A DNA stretch of 58,021 bases from Streptantibioticus rubrisoli (GTDB lineage: Bacteria; Actinomycetota; Actinomycetes; Streptomycetales; Streptomycetaceae): contig NZ_JANFNH010000047.1 in NCBI RefSeq assembly GCF_024436055.1, forward strand, positions 1 through 58,021. Reading direction: 5' to 3'. A program made the translations under genes and the position numbers. Within the stretch, counting starts at the first letter, position 1. Each line of letters starts with the position of its first letter. Below, one piece after another: positions 10,543 through 21,097 of the stretch. The notes below the pieces were generated by a model that was not told where the DNA came from, did not search any database, and saw only the letters and a list, made by a program, of their open reading frames with translations.

Positions 10543-12453
10543 TCATACCGTTACCGCGGTCAGCAGCTCCCGCAGGATGCCCGTGCCGTTCAAGGTCAGG
10601 ACCGACTCCGGGTGGAACTGGACGCCCGCGAAGCCCGGGCCGCGCAGGGCGTGGACGTCGCCGGTCGTCTTGTCACGCGACAACTCGACGCGGTGCATGG
10701 CCAGTTCGTCCGCGCTGGCGTCATCACACCGCGCGGTGAACGTGTTGTAGAAGCCGACCGTCTCCGGGCGGCCGAACAGGTCGATCCGTTCCTGTGCGCC
10801 CTGGAACGGCACCCGCTTGCGGACGATGCCCAGGCCCAATTCGGCGGCGATCAGCTCATGCCCGAGGCACACCCCGAGCAGCCCCTGCCGGTGGCCGCTG
10901 AGCAACTCGGCGGCCAGCGCGCGCAGTTGACGCATCTTGGGGTCAGTGCGGTCCGCCGGGTCACCGGGACCCGGGCCGAGGACCACCGGGCCGGGGTGCG
11001 CCAACGCCGCCTCGCGCAGGCCGGGTTCGTCGTAGCGGCGTACGGTTACCGCCAGACCGGCGGAGCGCAGAACGTGTGCCAGCATCGCGGTGAAGGTGTC
11101 CTCGCCGTCGACCACCAGCGCATGGCCGGTCGGCTCGGTTTCCCGCCGGTCCCGCAACCGCAGCCAGAACGGAGCCAGGTTCGCCCGGCGTGCGTCGAGT
11201 GCGGCGCGCACCCGGATGTCGTCCGCCAGCCGGGGCCGGGGGCCGTCGGCGGGGCGCACGGCGGCCGGGCCCACGCCCAGTGCGGCCAGGACCGCGGCGG
11301 CCTTGGCGTGGGTCTCGGCCACCTCGCCGTGCGGGTCGGAGTGGCGGACCAGGGTGGCGCCCACGCCGACGCCGAACCGTCCGTCCGGGGTGATGTCGGC
11401 GGTGCGGATGAGGATGGGGGAGTCCAGGGTCTGGGCGCCGCCCGCGTCCCGGCCGATCAGCGCGAGGGCGCCCGCGTAGTAGCCGCGGCCGTGCGGCTCG
11501 TGGCGTTCGATGACCCGGCAGGCGTTCTGCACCGGCGAGCCGGTCACCGTCGCGGCGAACATCGTCTCGCGCAGTACCTGGCGCACGTCCATCGAACTGC
11601 GGCCGCGCAGCTCGTACTCGGTGTGCGCCAGGTGCGCCATCTCCTTCAGCCGGGGGCCGATCACCTGGCCGCCGAGGTCGCCGACGGTGCACATCATCTT
11701 CAGCTCCTCGTCGACGACCATGGTCAGCTCCTCCACCTCCTTCGCGTCCCGCAGGAACGCCAGCAGGCCCTCGGCGGACGGGCCGGTCGCCGGATAGCGG
11801 TAGGTGCCGCTGATCGGGTTCATCACCACCGTCCCCCCGGCCATCCGGACATGTACTTCCGGGCTCGCGCCGACCAGGGTGCGTTCGCCGGTGTGCACCA
11901 CGTACGTCCAGTACGCGCCGCGCTCGCCGGTCAGCAGCCGCCGGAACAGGGCGAGCGCGTCGGCGGTGGTGAAGCCGGGGATCTCGCCGCGGAAGGTCCG
12001 GCGGATCACGAAGTTCGCGCCCTCACCGCGTCCGATCTCGTCCTCGACGACCCGGCGCACAATCCGCGCGTACTCCTCGTCGGCCACGTCGAACGCCCCG
12101 CCCTCGACGGTCACCGCGTGTCCCGGCAGCGCGGCCAGCAGCTCCGGCACCGGCAGCAGATGCGTCTCCCGGGGGCGCAGCACCAGCAGCGGGGTGCCGT
12201 CGTCGCGCACGTCGAAGCCGCGTTCCCGGATCTGCCGGAACGGCACCAGCGCCAGCGCGTCCAGCGCCGCGCCGCCGTCCGGTACTCCGGTCGGCAGCGG
12301 GATGTCGGCCAGCCGCTCCAGCCGGGTCACCGGGCCGAGCAGCAGCTCGACGGTGTCCTCGGCCCGGCCGGGGGTACGGCGGCGCAACAGGGCGAACGGC
12401 GGGCGGTCGGGGGAGCACAGGCGCTCCACGAGTGCGCTGGGGCTGGCGTTCAT
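10543..12453 (-). CDS. trpEG: anthranilate synthase, fused TrpE-TrpG
   Basis: 636-aa single-chain anthranilate synthase, converting chorismate and glutamine to anthranilate, the first step of tryptophan synthesis. The N-terminal two thirds is the chorismate-binding TrpE domain (motifs ISGTYRYPATGPSAEG and the VTGSPVQNACRVIERHEPHG region). The C-terminal third is a class I glutamine amidotransferase with Cys529 in GVCLGHE and FHPES near the end. The fusion is known in Streptomyces and Rhizobium, and in phenazine PhzE. The start ATG at 12453 has a GGAAGGA RBS. A leader peptide with three Trp codons and a hairpin precede it, arguing for the tryptophan pathway enzyme and not a phenazine or antibiotic paralogue. 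Confidence 0.93.
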   Translation of the reverse strand: MNASPSALVERLCSPDRPPFALLRRRTPGRAEDTVELLLGPVTRLERLADIPLPTGVPDGGAALDALALVPFRQIRERGFDVRDDGTPLLVLRPRETHLLPVPELLAALPGHAVTVEGGAFDVADEEYARIVRRVVEDEIGRGEGANFVIRRTFRGEIPGFTTADALALFRRLLTGERGAYWTYVVHTGERTLVGASPEVHVRMAGGTVVMNPISGTYRYPATGPSAEGLLAFLRDAKEVEELTMVVDEELKMMCTVGDLGGQVIGPRLKEMAHLAHTEYELRGRSSMDVRQVLRETMFAATVTGSPVQNACRVIERHEPHGRGYYAGALALIGRDAGGAQTLDSPILIRTADITPDGRFGVGVGATLVRHSDPHGEVAETHAKAAAVLAALGVGPAAVRPADGPRPRLADDIRVRAALDARRANLAPFWLRLRDRRETEPTGHALVVDGEDTFTAMLAHVLRSAGLAVTVRRYDEPGLREAALAHPGPVVLGPGPGDPADRTDPKMRQLRALAAELLSGHRQGLLGVCLGHELIAAELGLGIVRKRVPFQGAQERIDLFGRPETVGFYNTFTARCDDASADELAMHRVELSRDKTTGDVHALRGPGFAGVQFHPESVLTLNGTGILRELLTAVTV

Positions 12454-12492
12454 GGCGGATCCTTCCGGGATGCGGAGGGCGGCCAGACACGC

Positions 12493-12518
12493 CGAAGGCC
12501 GCCCTCGGGCGGCCTTCG
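12493..12518 (-). terminator. trp attenuator hairpin
   Basis: CGAAGGCCGCCC (12493-12504) and GGGCGGCCTTCG (12507-12518) form a near-continuous stem between the leader peptide stop and the trpEG RBS. No T-run follows. The position fits an attenuator terminator relieved when ribosomes stall at the leader's Trp codons. Confidence 0.7.
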
Positions 12519-12541
12519 CGAAAACTCCTGGGTGCGCGCGA

Positions 12542-12610
12542 TCAGTGGGCCGCCGGATCAGCGGTCCACCACCATGCCGTGCGGCAGGTCGGGTTCGTCA
12601 GCGCGTACAC
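12542..12610 (-). CDS. trpL: trp leader peptide (22 aa, three consecutive Trp)
   Basis: A 22-codon ORF starting with GTG at 12610 and ending with TGA at 12542, encoding MYALTNPTCR followed by TAWWWTADPAAH. The block WWWTAxPAAH resembles Streptomyces trp leader peptides such as that before S. coelicolor and S. venezuelae trp genes. Three adjacent Trp codons are very unlikely by chance in this high-GC DNA. It lies 89 nt upstream of the trpEG start with a hairpin in between. A TAGGGT -10 box (12618-12623, minus strand) ends 7 nt before the GTG, so the leader is probably translated from the mRNA 5' end. It should sense charged tRNA-Trp. Confidence 0.88.
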   Translation of the reverse strand: MYALTNPTCRTAWWWTADPAAH

Positions 12611-12695
12611 GGCCCCGACCCTAGCGCACGTCCATGGACGACCACCGGTTGTCTCACCTTGCGGGCATCGACGAAAAGATCTGGACAAGACCCCG

Positions 12696-12701
12696 TAGTG
12701 T
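12696..12701 (+). promoter_or_regulatory. -10 box of aroH, leaderless
   Basis: TAGTGT ends 7 nt before the GTG at 12709, the spacing expected when transcription starts at the start codon. Confidence 0.5.
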
Positions 12702-12708
12702 TGGCCTT

Positions 12709-14058
12709 GTGACCGTGAACGCTGAATCCACTGCCGGTGGCAACACCTGGCGCGACCTTCCCGCGGCGCAGCAGCCCGAGTGGCCCAACCCCGAGGCTCT
12801 GCGCGAAGTGATCGCGGACCTCGAGTCGTATCCGCCGCTCGTCTTCGCGGGCGAGTGCGACCTGCTGCGCAGCCGTATGGGAGCCGTCGCCCGTGGTGAG
12901 GCGTTCCTGCTCCAGGGCGGCGACTGCGCCGAGGCGTTCGACGCGATCTCCGCCGACCACATCCGCAACAAGCTCAAGACGCTGCTCCAGATGGGCGCCG
13001 TGCTCACCTACGCGGCTTCGGTGCCGGTGGTGAAGGTCGGCCGGATCGCCGGCCAGTACTCCAAGCCGCGCTCCAAGCCGACCGAGACCCGCGGCGGGGT
13101 CACCCTGCCGACGTACCGGGGTGACAGCGTCAACGGCTTCGAGTTCACCCCCGAGGCCCGTACCCCGGACCCGCAGCGGTTGAAGCGGATGTACCAGGCC
13201 TCGGCCGCCACCTTGAACCTGGTGCGCGCCTTCTCCACCGGTGGCTACGCCGACCTGCGGCAGGTGCACGCCTGGAACCAGGACTTCGTGAAGTCGTCCC
13301 CGTCCGGTCAGCGCTACGAGGCGCTGGCCCGCGAGATCGACAACGCGATGAACTTCATGAAGGCCTGCGGGACGGACCCGGAGGAGTTCAAGACCGTCGA
13401 GTTCTACTCCTCGCACGAGGCGTTGATCCTGGACTACGAGTCGGCGCTGACCCGGGTGGACTCGCGCACCGGCAAGCTGTACGACGTCTCCGGCCACATG
13501 CTGTGGATCGGCGAGCGCACCCGGCAGCTGGACGGCGCGCACATCGAGTTCGCCTCCCGGATCCGCAACCCGATCGGCGTCAAGCTGGGTCCGACGACCA
13601 CGCCGCACGAGGCCCTCACCCTGATTGACCGGCTGGACCCGGAGCGCGAGCCCGGTCGGCTGACGTTCATCACCCGGATGGGCGCCGACAAGATCCGCGA
13701 CCGGCTGCCCGAGCTGGTGGAGAAGGTCACGGCGTCCGGAGCCCAGGTGGCGTGGGTGTGCGACCCGATGCACGGCAACACCTTCGAGGCGGCCTCGGGC
13801 CACAAGACCCGGCGCTTCGACGACGTGCTCGACGAGGTCAAGGGCTTCTTCGAGGTCCACAAGGGCCTGGGCACCCACCCGGGCGGCATCCACGTGGAGC
13901 TGACCGGCGACGATGTCACCGAGTGCGTGGGCGGCGGCGACGAGATCTTCGTCGACGACCTGCACCAGCGCTACGAGACGGCCTGCGACCCCCGGCTGAA
14001 CCGCAGCCAGTCCCTGGACCTGGCCTTCCTGGTGGCGGAGATGTACCGGCAGCAGTAG
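12709..14058 (+). CDS. aroH: class II 3-deoxy-7-phosphoheptulonate synthase (DAHP synthase)
   Basis: 449-aa plant-type (class II) DAHP synthase, condensing phosphoenolpyruvate and erythrose 4-phosphate to open the shikimate pathway. Family motifs include FAGECDLLR, LLQGGDCAEAF with the metal-ligand cysteine, VGRIAGQYSKPRS, NPIGVKLGPTT, WVCDPMHGNT and GIHVELTGDDVTEC. Length and sequence match Streptomyces AroH. The start is the GTG at 12709 (VTVNAEST), supported by the leaderless -10 box; the upstream ATG at 12634 would overlap the promoter region. It is divergent from the trp leader, placing control of aromatic entry and of the tryptophan branch in one 98-bp region. Whether the gene itself responds to tryptophan is not visible. 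Confidence 0.95.
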   Translation: MTVNAESTAGGNTWRDLPAAQQPEWPNPEALREVIADLESYPPLVFAGECDLLRSRMGAVARGEAFLLQGGDCAEAFDAISADHIRNKLKTLLQMGAVLTYAASVPVVKVGRIAGQYSKPRSKPTETRGGVTLPTYRGDSVNGFEFTPEARTPDPQRLKRMYQASAATLNLVRAFSTGGYADLRQVHAWNQDFVKSSPSGQRYEALAREIDNAMNFMKACGTDPEEFKTVEFYSSHEALILDYESALTRVDSRTGKLYDVSGHMLWIGERTRQLDGAHIEFASRIRNPIGVKLGPTTTPHEALTLIDRLDPEREPGRLTFITRMGADKIRDRLPELVEKVTASGAQVAWVCDPMHGNTFEAASGHKTRRFDDVLDEVKGFFEVHKGLGTHPGGIHVELTGDDVTECVGGGDEIFVDDLHQRYETACDPRLNRSQSLDLAFLVAEMYRQQ

Positions 14059-19627: not shown

Positions 19628-20796
19628 ACGGCCTGCTCCTGGGGTGCGGTCGCGAATCGTGCGGGGGTGAACGGACGGGCGTACGGCGGGAGTTCGCCGG
19701 TGGTCAGCGCCTCGGCCATGGCATCGCCGGTGATCGGGGTGAGCAGCACCCCGTTGCGGTGGTGGCCGGTGGCCAGCAGCAGCCCGGGCAGCGCGGTCGG
19801 GCCGAGCAGCGGGGCGTTGTCCGGTGAGCCCGGGCGCAGCCCGGCCAGGGCCTCGGCGAGCGGCAGTTCGGTGATGCCGGGCACCAGGTCGTGCGCGTCC
19901 CGCAGCAGTTCGTAGACGCCGCCCGCGGTGACCTCGGTGTCCCAGCCCAACTCCTCGCTGGTCGCGCCGACCACCAGCTCGCCGTTCTCCCGTGGCACCA
20001 GGTAGACATGCCCGCCGCGTACCACCCCGCGCACCGTCCTGGACAGGAACGGGGCGTACGCCCGCGGGATCCGCAGCCGCAGCACCTGGCCCTTCACCGG
20101 CCGCACCGGCGGCAGCACGTGCTCGGGCAGGCCCGCGACGGTGCCGCTGCGGCTGCCCGCCGCCAGTACCGTCTGCTCGGCGGCGAGCGCGGTGCCGTCG
20201 CGCAGCACCGCGCCGCGGACACGGTCGCCGTCCACCGTGACGCGTTCCGCCGAGTCGCGGTGGAAGACCACCCCCGCCCTCTCACAGGCCCGCAGCAGAG
20301 CGGTGGCCAGCCGTCGCGGGTCGACCTGGTGGTCGCCGTCCACCCGCAGGCCGCCGCGCACGCCGGGGGCGAGCATCGGCTCCAGGCGGCGGCAGTCCCG
20401 GCCGCTGATCCACTCGGACGCCAGGCCCAGCGTGAGCTGGAAGGCGTGCAGTTCGCGCATCGCGGCGCGGTCGTCGGCGTCCAGCGCGACCGCGAGCGTG
20501 CCGCAGGGGCGGTAGCCGAGGTCGAGGCCGGTGGCCTCGGTCAGTTCCTCGGCGAACGTCGGGTAGCTGCGCGCGGACGCCAGGTTGAGCTCCAGCAGGG
20601 TCTGCTCGCCGTACTGGAGTTCCGTGACGGCGGCGAGCATCCCGGCGGCGACATGGGCCGCACCCGCGCCGGGCGACGGGTCGACCACCGCTGTCCGCAG
20701 GCCGCGCTGGGCCGCGCGCCAAGCGGTGACCAGGCCGATGATGCCGCCACCGATGACGAGCACGTCGTCTTGCGGCGGGCAACTGGGAACGTGCAT
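19624..20796 (-). CDS. thiO: glycine oxidase (ThiO)
   Basis: 390-aa FAD-dependent oxidase of the DAO family. It oxidises glycine to the imine needed by ThiG, replacing the ThiH route. The FAD-binding motif VIGGGIIGLVTAWRAAQRGL starts near residue 14. Central GHVYLVPRENGELVVGAT and C-terminal ATGHHRNGVLLTP motifs are characteristic. The start ATG at 20796 has a strong SD (GGGAGGAG) at 20807-20814 located directly at the 3' edge of the TPP riboswitch. It is the first gene of the thiO-thiS-thiG operon. Confidence 0.93.
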
Positions 20797-21097
20797 GACG
20801 GTTCCGCTCCTCCCTTCGCCGGTATGACCCGGATCAGGTTCGTACGGTCGGCGGCCGCTCAGCCGCCCTCTCAGCCCGGTACGTCCGGGCTCCCGCGAGT
20901 GCTCACCCGTACCTTACTGCGTGAGGTACGGGGGTGGGCCCCCGGTCCCGTCCGCCGTGTGGTGGCTTCCCCTCTGGGGGCGGGGCGGTTCGTGGCGGCG
21001 GGTGTCGTGCCGAACCCGCCGCGAGCCGTGACGATGTGTCAGGGATCTCCCCGCACGATGGTGCGGATTCCGCGCCGTACGGCGCTACCGTGATCGC
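20797..21097. other. divergent intergenic region, thiO / ferredoxin reductase
   Basis: About 300 bp holding the TPP riboswitch (minus strand), a TAAGGT hexamer just upstream of it that could be its -10, and a TACCGT -10 box at 21086-21091 for the reductase gene. No further gene is supported. Confidence 0.6.
20811..20905 (-). promoter_or_regulatory. TPP riboswitch (THI element)
   Basis: On the minus strand the conserved blocks appear in order: CGGGAGCCCGG, CTGAGAGG (20869-20874 core), a variable stem, then ACCTGATCCGGGTCATACCGGCGAAGG. These are the THI-box landmarks that bind thiamine pyrophosphate. The thiO Shine-Dalgarno lies immediately after the last block, so control is most simply by closing the RBS when TPP is bound. 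Confidence 0.93.

Follow-up and report, generated by a model that had tools for sequence, protein, structure and literature searches.

The window is the whole stretch of DNA that was analysed, 58,021 nt from Streptantibioticus rubrisoli. It contains a fused trpEG gene, a divergent ORF for a class II DAHP synthase and, directly 5' of trpEG, a short ORF in which several Trp codons follow one another (Table 1). The initial annotation had read this region as the attenuator of a fused trpEG with its Trp leader peptide, a 22-aa minus-strand ORF that starts at GTG, a WWW run and a hairpin. All of these are present where the table places them, and the reading is the right one. From the leader to the gene, the TGA is followed by 24 nt, the hairpin, another 27 nt and GGAAGGA.

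Table 1. Features of the trpEG leader region, in positions of the window
Feature	Positions	Strand	Basis
Class II DAHP synthase ORF, divergent from trpEG	12634..14058	+	TIGR01358
TAGGGT, -10-type box, 7 nt 5' of GTG	12618..12623	-	sequence
Leader ORF, 22 aa, VYALTNPTCRTAWWWTADPAAH	12542..12610	-	GTG start 12610, TGA stop 12542
Putative helix P0, 5' arm GUGUACGCGC, start codon inside	12601..12610	-	
Three Trp codons in tandem (codons 13-15)	12566..12574	-	sequence
P1 (1:2) hairpin, Trp codons pair with the PAAH/stop codons	12544..12570	-	folding and relatives
Segment 2, GGCGGCC, within the PAAH codons	12548..12554	-	triple in relatives
Putative helix P0, 3' arm GCGCGCAC, two nt past the stop codon	12532..12539	-	
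Segment 3, GGCCGCC, partner of segment 2 (antiterminator) or segment 4 (terminator)	12508..12514	-	
Segment 4, GGCGGCC	12497..12503	-	
Predicted terminator hairpin (3:4), then GGCGTGTCT without a T-run	12494..12517	-	
GGAAGGA, trpEG Shine-Dalgarno	12460..12466	-	sequence
Fused trpEG (anthranilate synthase), 636 aa, ATG at 12453	10543..12453	-	profile and PDB matches

The DAHP synthase ORF matched TIGR01358 with 770 bits, above the cut-off, and its domain match begins near 12739. The top NCBIfam models for TrpEG are anthranilate synthases, yet the scores are far under the curated cut-offs (172 vs 645 bits). In the PDB, 3r74 was the sole sequence at E<=1e-20 (E 3.2e-172, residues 1-632 of 636). 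We take 3r74 to be PhzE. TrpEG-like paralogues with 55-56% identity (L004 and L005) were found in both other genomes of the genus and were not among the matches of the window's genome. No Trp leader element was found in the sequence read at these two paralogues. The gene 5' of the L004 paralogue has a weak match to isochorismatase-type hydrolases, and the L004 gene pair is presumably PhzD/PhzE-like.

The leader is probably transcribed without an untranslated 5' region, which refines what the initial annotation had said. TAGGGT lies 7 nt 5' of the GTG, and from this promoter spacing the transcript of this strain would start at or near 12610. ATG replaces GTG at the same leader position in two relatives of the same genus. 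A TANNNT box stands 6-7 nt 5' of an in-frame ATG or GTG in each of the 111 locus rows that the script accepted, among which 104 element sequences are distinct. The box was no criterion of the script behind this count, but it was one in later scripts. Among 198 trpE-type leaders, 173 have three consecutive W, 23 have two and two have one. The first Trp is codon 9 in 129 of the 198 and codon 13 in the window.

Downstream of the Trp codons, three mutually complementary segments are present (GGCGGCC / GGCCGCC / GGCGGCC). The antiterminator (2:3) and the terminator (3:4) that they can form are mutually exclusive. The hairpin that the initial annotation had noticed is GAAGGCCGCC-CGAG-GGCGGCCTTC, which is G+C-rich and has 10 bp in the fold; a possible eleventh pair, C-G, would extend it to 12518/12493. 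Folding of the single sequence was unremarkable (z -1.81; 9 of 200 shuffles as stable). The pairs of P1 and of the terminator are retained in nearly all of 67 non-redundant sequences, and a double change was found at just one of 19 predicted pairs. This is expected of stems that hardly vary, so covariation says little for either helix. The outer pair of the terminator does exchange between A-U and C-G among relatives at greater distance. The Ala-Ala of PAAH is written GCG GCC in all 80 loci selected by protein, although synonyms exist, and this points to selection on the RNA of segment 2. WWW, the start box and the terminator were the sole requirements of the script applied to these loci. An earlier codon table was dropped as evidence because it was circular for segment 2; the script that picked its rows demanded GGCGGCC.

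The initial annotation had also pointed to the leaders of other trpEG genes, and the comparison bears it out, with chance a remote explanation for the element. The 80 loci were chosen by similarity of the TrpEG protein alone, as the best 80 of 514 confirmed relatives, and every one of them has a WWW leader, a start with its box and a terminator. A stricter script, which required WWW and the triple GGCGGCC / GGCCGCC / GGCGG(C/T)C, accepted 79 of the 80. The exception (L080) reads MFAHTTRNWWWTAHRAAH, in which AGCGGCC replaces GGCGGCC and the terminator is unchanged. In L050 (2835-2949), an insertion after PAA lengthens the ORF to MFAQTTQNWWWTAHPAAPPHALRAGGHPSSRD and parts segment 2 from the terminator. 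The leader peptide of L033, on a contig titled Microtetraspora glauca, is the same as in the Streptomyces loci L048 and L056, and that record is possibly mislabelled.

A covariance model, R1, was made from 67 non-redundant elements; L050, with its insertion, was omitted from the 68 rows. R1 matches 291 of 297 genomes of the family at E<=0.001. The downstream gene was read only in the fetched loci, not in all of the matched genomes. Of the six genomes missed, G130 is recovered under laxer filters (E 1.4e-4), G010 reaches no better than E 0.0026, and no match at E<=0.01 was found in G012, G019, G029 and G057. A pattern search (207 of 297 family genomes) was superseded by R1, since several of its listed matches, inside coding sequence, look like chance; L095 and L115 are apparent chance matches by eye. 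In a search across the class, R1 matched 50 of 296 genomes at E<=0.01, 28 of them in the window's own family. By eye, L162 (from the window's own family) and L178, two weak matches of this search, look false. L166, L170, L171 and L180 fail the leader script, and by eye L166 and L180 read as short WW leaders. In the families of two class-level matches, R1 found 10 of 22 and 8 of 35 genomes. No family of Rfam 15 reaches its gathering score on the element; the four matches there (E 5.3-10) all lie far below. The sole Rfam 15 match at threshold in the window is a TPP riboswitch at 20793-20906 on the minus strand, which scores 66.7 bits where gathering requires 54.3. The trp attenuator is well conserved and unmatched by any Rfam 15 family at threshold. 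It is also expected biology, ordinary in kind and found in nearly all of the sampled genomes of the family.

A further helix, P0, lies outside the description of the initial annotation. In a 171-nt fold, about 10 nt at the 5' end of the leader are paired with bases immediately 3' of segment 2. In the window, P0 has 7 of 8 pairs and one A-C mismatch. The predicted probability of P0 is 0.91 for the first 81 nt and 0.90 for the first 93 nt, before segment 3 is made. It falls to 0.12 in a 126-nt fold that ends just past the terminator, where P0 is replaced.

The two arms of P0 are coupled across species. In 67 sequences, the first 14 nt folded with their own middle region at a mean of -12.89 kcal/mol, against -11.59 kcal/mol when swapped. 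None of 1000 permutations did as well, while three control pairings were equalled in 163, 334 and 703 of 1000. Larger samples drew on 198 of 214 sequences, without the window copies and a further locus (L001, L117 and L003), four loci of the trpS type and nine exact repeats. This set is behind the clade tests, the later swap between sister pairs and the counts of Trp codons, arm pairs, gaps and T-tails; L113, L185 and L197 have no gene in reach. With one sequence per clade, the coupling has z from -6.4 (35 clades) to -12.1 (161 clades, where shared ancestry is hardly removed), and on average a fraction of 0.000 of the permutations is as low. Controls with the reversed middle, later codons or the promoter gave z between -0.5 and 1.5. 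Two other pairings were not null, one between the head and the CGCG of the pre-terminator (z -1.7 to -2.5), the other between the middle and the pre-terminator (z -1.8 to -4.1). An antiterminator that runs on through CGCG would predict the latter.

Counts of paired arms agree. Among 59 clade representatives, 32 have at least 7 of 8 P0 pairs, where 5000 permutations gave 18.5 on average and never more than 30. Seven or more of the eight pairs were found in 126 of 198 cognate arms, 1532 of 4000 non-cognate draws and 35 of 3960 letter-shuffled ones. As non-cognate arms often pair too, only the species-specific part of the complementarity is evidence of coupling. The test least open to shared ancestry is a swap between sister pairs. 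In a first set of 162 sequences, the cognate arms were better in 24 of 30 pairs (p 7e-4), and control pairings gave 17/35, 12/29, 16/25 and 16/33. That set omits the window copies L001 and L117, four loci of the trpS type, L080 and L174, where segment 2 went unrecognised, and a locus that has no gene in reach; other repeats of a place were kept, but pairs with identical arms were not counted. With more sequences and another tree the result was weaker, at 25 of 39 (sign p 0.054, Wilcoxon p 0.0056). Taken by themselves, the 40 added sequences yielded 5 of 8 (p 0.36 and 0.12). On the coupling of its arms, P0 is well supported and very probably a real RNA helix.

The model R1 also detects attenuators 5' of trpS, and protein-family matches confirmed two such loci. 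The identity of trpS comes from TIGR00233, above its cut-off, for L161 and L163, and otherwise from a motif, which 23 of 24 loci have; L236 is without the TrpS motif in the script. The trpS leaders (L161, L163, L164 and L228-L251) are peptides such as MTTHAHTTQWWAA. Under a strict exact pattern, they occur in 24 of 297 family genomes, and the window's own is not one of them. These attenuators have a P0 of their own, with arms such as GCAUGCG/CGCAUGC, GCAUACG/CGUAUGC and GCGUACG/CGUACGC. Across 24 loci, none of 5000 permutations equalled the coupling of the arms, and controls were equalled in 4701 and 3071 of 5000, with ancestry uncorrected. As P0 of trpS was first seen on L161, L163 and L164, whose genomes are within the 24, 21 of the 24 are new. 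The poorest pairing is in L234 (-9.9) and L229 (-10.7).

On these sequence grounds, the element is highly likely to attenuate trpEG transcription through a ribosome and to read charged tRNA-Trp. Most likely, it switches trpEG on when tryptophan is short. Transcription would begin at or next to the GTG, and the leader would then be translated without a Shine-Dalgarno. With plentiful Trp, the ribosome would reach the stop codon and cover segment 2 and the 3' arm of P0, so that the 3:4 terminator could form. With Trp short, the ribosome would stall on WWW and open P1, segments 2 and 3 would pair and RNA polymerase would read into trpEG. Without any ribosome, P0 and P1 would hold segment 2 and cover the start codon, and the default would be off. 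Such a part for P0, that of an anti-antiterminator, may be real, at slightly below even likelihood by analogy. P0 and the 2:3 antiterminator cannot coexist without a pseudoknot, and P0 covers the start of the leaderless ORF.

A wider proposal can be made tentatively, with the balance somewhat against it. The trpE and trpS attenuators of actinomycetes may carry P0 as a fourth, covarying helix that makes them single-shot switches. To read the Trp codons, a ribosome would have to load on the nascent 5' end while P0 is still open; otherwise, P0 and P1 would lock the element off. P0 is the part of greater interest here, as it would explain, in a way open to test, how ribosomes on a leaderless leader keep time with RNA polymerase.

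P0 could instead be real RNA that merely shields the leaderless 5' end from decay, outside the attenuation decision. Its place at the extreme 5' end fits this, as does its predicted formation once transcribed (probability 0.91). However, P0 excludes the 2:3 antiterminator barring a pseudoknot, its 3' arm shares nucleotides with the CGCG by which that antiterminator may be lengthened, and stability alone would need no partner between segments 2 and 3. Protection of the 5' end outside the decision is considered unlikely.

The attenuator could also be translational, with the leader ribosome governing access to the trpEG ribosome-binding site. The initial annotation had left transcriptional and translational control side by side and had noted that the hairpin lacks a T-run. 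The lack is real (GGCGTGTCT follows the stem), and a 171-nt fold places part of GGAAGGA in a weak local stem. However, 27 nt separate the end of the 3:4 hairpin from the Shine-Dalgarno, and no stem that would sequester the latter was seen to recur among the relatives; the AUCC/GGAU stem of the window is absent in many relatives among those listed, which read GGAAGGAAC. On these two points transcriptional control is favoured. The missing T-run is also not special to this strain. In nt 4-12 3' of GGCGGCC, TTT or longer is kept in 110 of 198 relatives, over half, and 88 of 198 are without TTT; nt 1-3 were omitted, as they are often stem bases. Over the full 12 nt, the longest T-run is at least 3 in 133 and at most 2 in 65 of the 198. 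The T-poor group includes the window and two congeners. The absent T-run would thus weaken the transcriptional reading without overturning it, and the strength of termination is uncertain. Translational attenuation appears improbable.

The arms of P0 could form an inverted-repeat DNA site for a repressor, with no RNA helix. They are CGCG-rich and lie just downstream of the promoter, and a single one of five helical-phase bins holds 77 of the 126 arm gaps, mostly owing to the modal gap of 49-50 nt. Yet perfect 8/8 arms have quite different sequences, GUACGCAC/GUGCGUAC in L132, GAACGCAC/GUGCGUUC in L175 and GAUCGCGA/UCGCGAUC in L176, with further perfect arms of other sequence, GUACGCGC/GCGCGUAC and GUACGCGA/UCGCGUAC. 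The gap between the arms varies from 45 to 66 nt, and another sequence fills the same role in the trpS leaders. A repressor site is very unlikely. It is barely plausible that the peptide itself, as an arrest peptide or acting in trans, is under selection instead of the RNA: WWWTAxPAAH is strongly conserved, but the RNA segment is kept where frame changes give the endings GGPPLVRTH and RRPTS (L132 and L121), where P becomes R (L104) and where WWW becomes CWR (L119 and L122). These last two elements (1589-1501 and 1591-1501, both minus strand) read TGC TGG CGG, keep the RNA segments and have one Trp codon.

Ribosome-mediated transcription attenuation thus remains the preferred reading, and it has several known counterparts. 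In attenuators of the E. coli trpL type, a ribosome-binding site lies upstream of the leader ORF. The window leader has no such site 5' of its ORF, where the TAGGGT box is only 7 nt from the GTG, and the U-run that stands behind the E. coli hairpin is absent, GGCGTGTCT being there. Lin et al. reportedly described a trp attenuator of S. venezuelae in 1998. Canestrari et al. are said to have described, in 2020, leaderless polycysteine short ORFs of mycobacteria as amino-acid-responsive attenuators. These share the short ORF type and, by prediction, the leaderless start with the window element but respond to cysteine and are described as translation attenuation.

The element is a trp attenuator of the published Streptomyces trpE kind, and this kind is already known. 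According to the available part of the S. lividans paper, trpL1 is MFAHSTRNWWWTAHPAAH, an 18-aa leader that is transcribed leaderless before a monocistronic trpE (PMC8079986). The window element has the same place, the same WWWTAxPAAH peptide type, hairpins and, by prediction, the leaderless start; the motif as given in the initial annotation matches trpL1 (PMC8079986). The window leader differs in its GTG start and in having 22 aa vs 18, with the four extra codons all 5' of WWW. It also lacks a T-run, whereas trpL1 reportedly has a uridine-enriched stretch; S. lividans has further attenuators without a U-rich stretch (PMC8079986). P0 is not mentioned for trpL1 in the available part of that paper (PMC8079986).

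Seliverstov et al. (2005, PMC1262725) predicted trp attenuators for Streptomyces and Corynebacterium, with a trpS case among them; experiments on S. venezuelae had come earlier. As far as the available part of that paper goes, these actinobacterial attenuators and the window have in common UGG repeats and the gGCC-rGCy-GGCC triple that antiterminator and terminator share. Their terminators are all followed by poly-U tracts, unlike that of the window (PMC1262725). By its legend, the alignment runs from the Trp codons to the terminator, and the 5' arm of P0 would lie outside it (PMC1262725). One result counts against ribosome-mediated attenuation. In the accessible part of a modelling paper, a computer model failed to reproduce how S. 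venezuelae trpE depends on Trp until RNA triplexes were included (PMC4833913).

No description of P0 in trp attenuators was found in the literature searched. The nearest likeness is the ilvBNC attenuator of C. glutamicum, from the available part of its description (Ryabchenko et al. 2025, PMC11857589). It has three hairpins, and its leader start is one nt from the transcript start. Hairpin H1 shields the start and is proposed to be an anti-antiterminator, with pausing suggested to leave the start open for the ribosome (PMC11857589). The system senses branched-chain amino acids, whereas the window element reads Trp codons. The likeness of H1 and P0, as helices that would shield the start and exclude the antiterminator, is one of description, and the role suggested for P0 is drawn from that proposed for H1. 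Through P0, the actinomycete attenuators of trpE and trpS would resemble ilvBNC of C. glutamicum with its proposed start-shielding hairpin.
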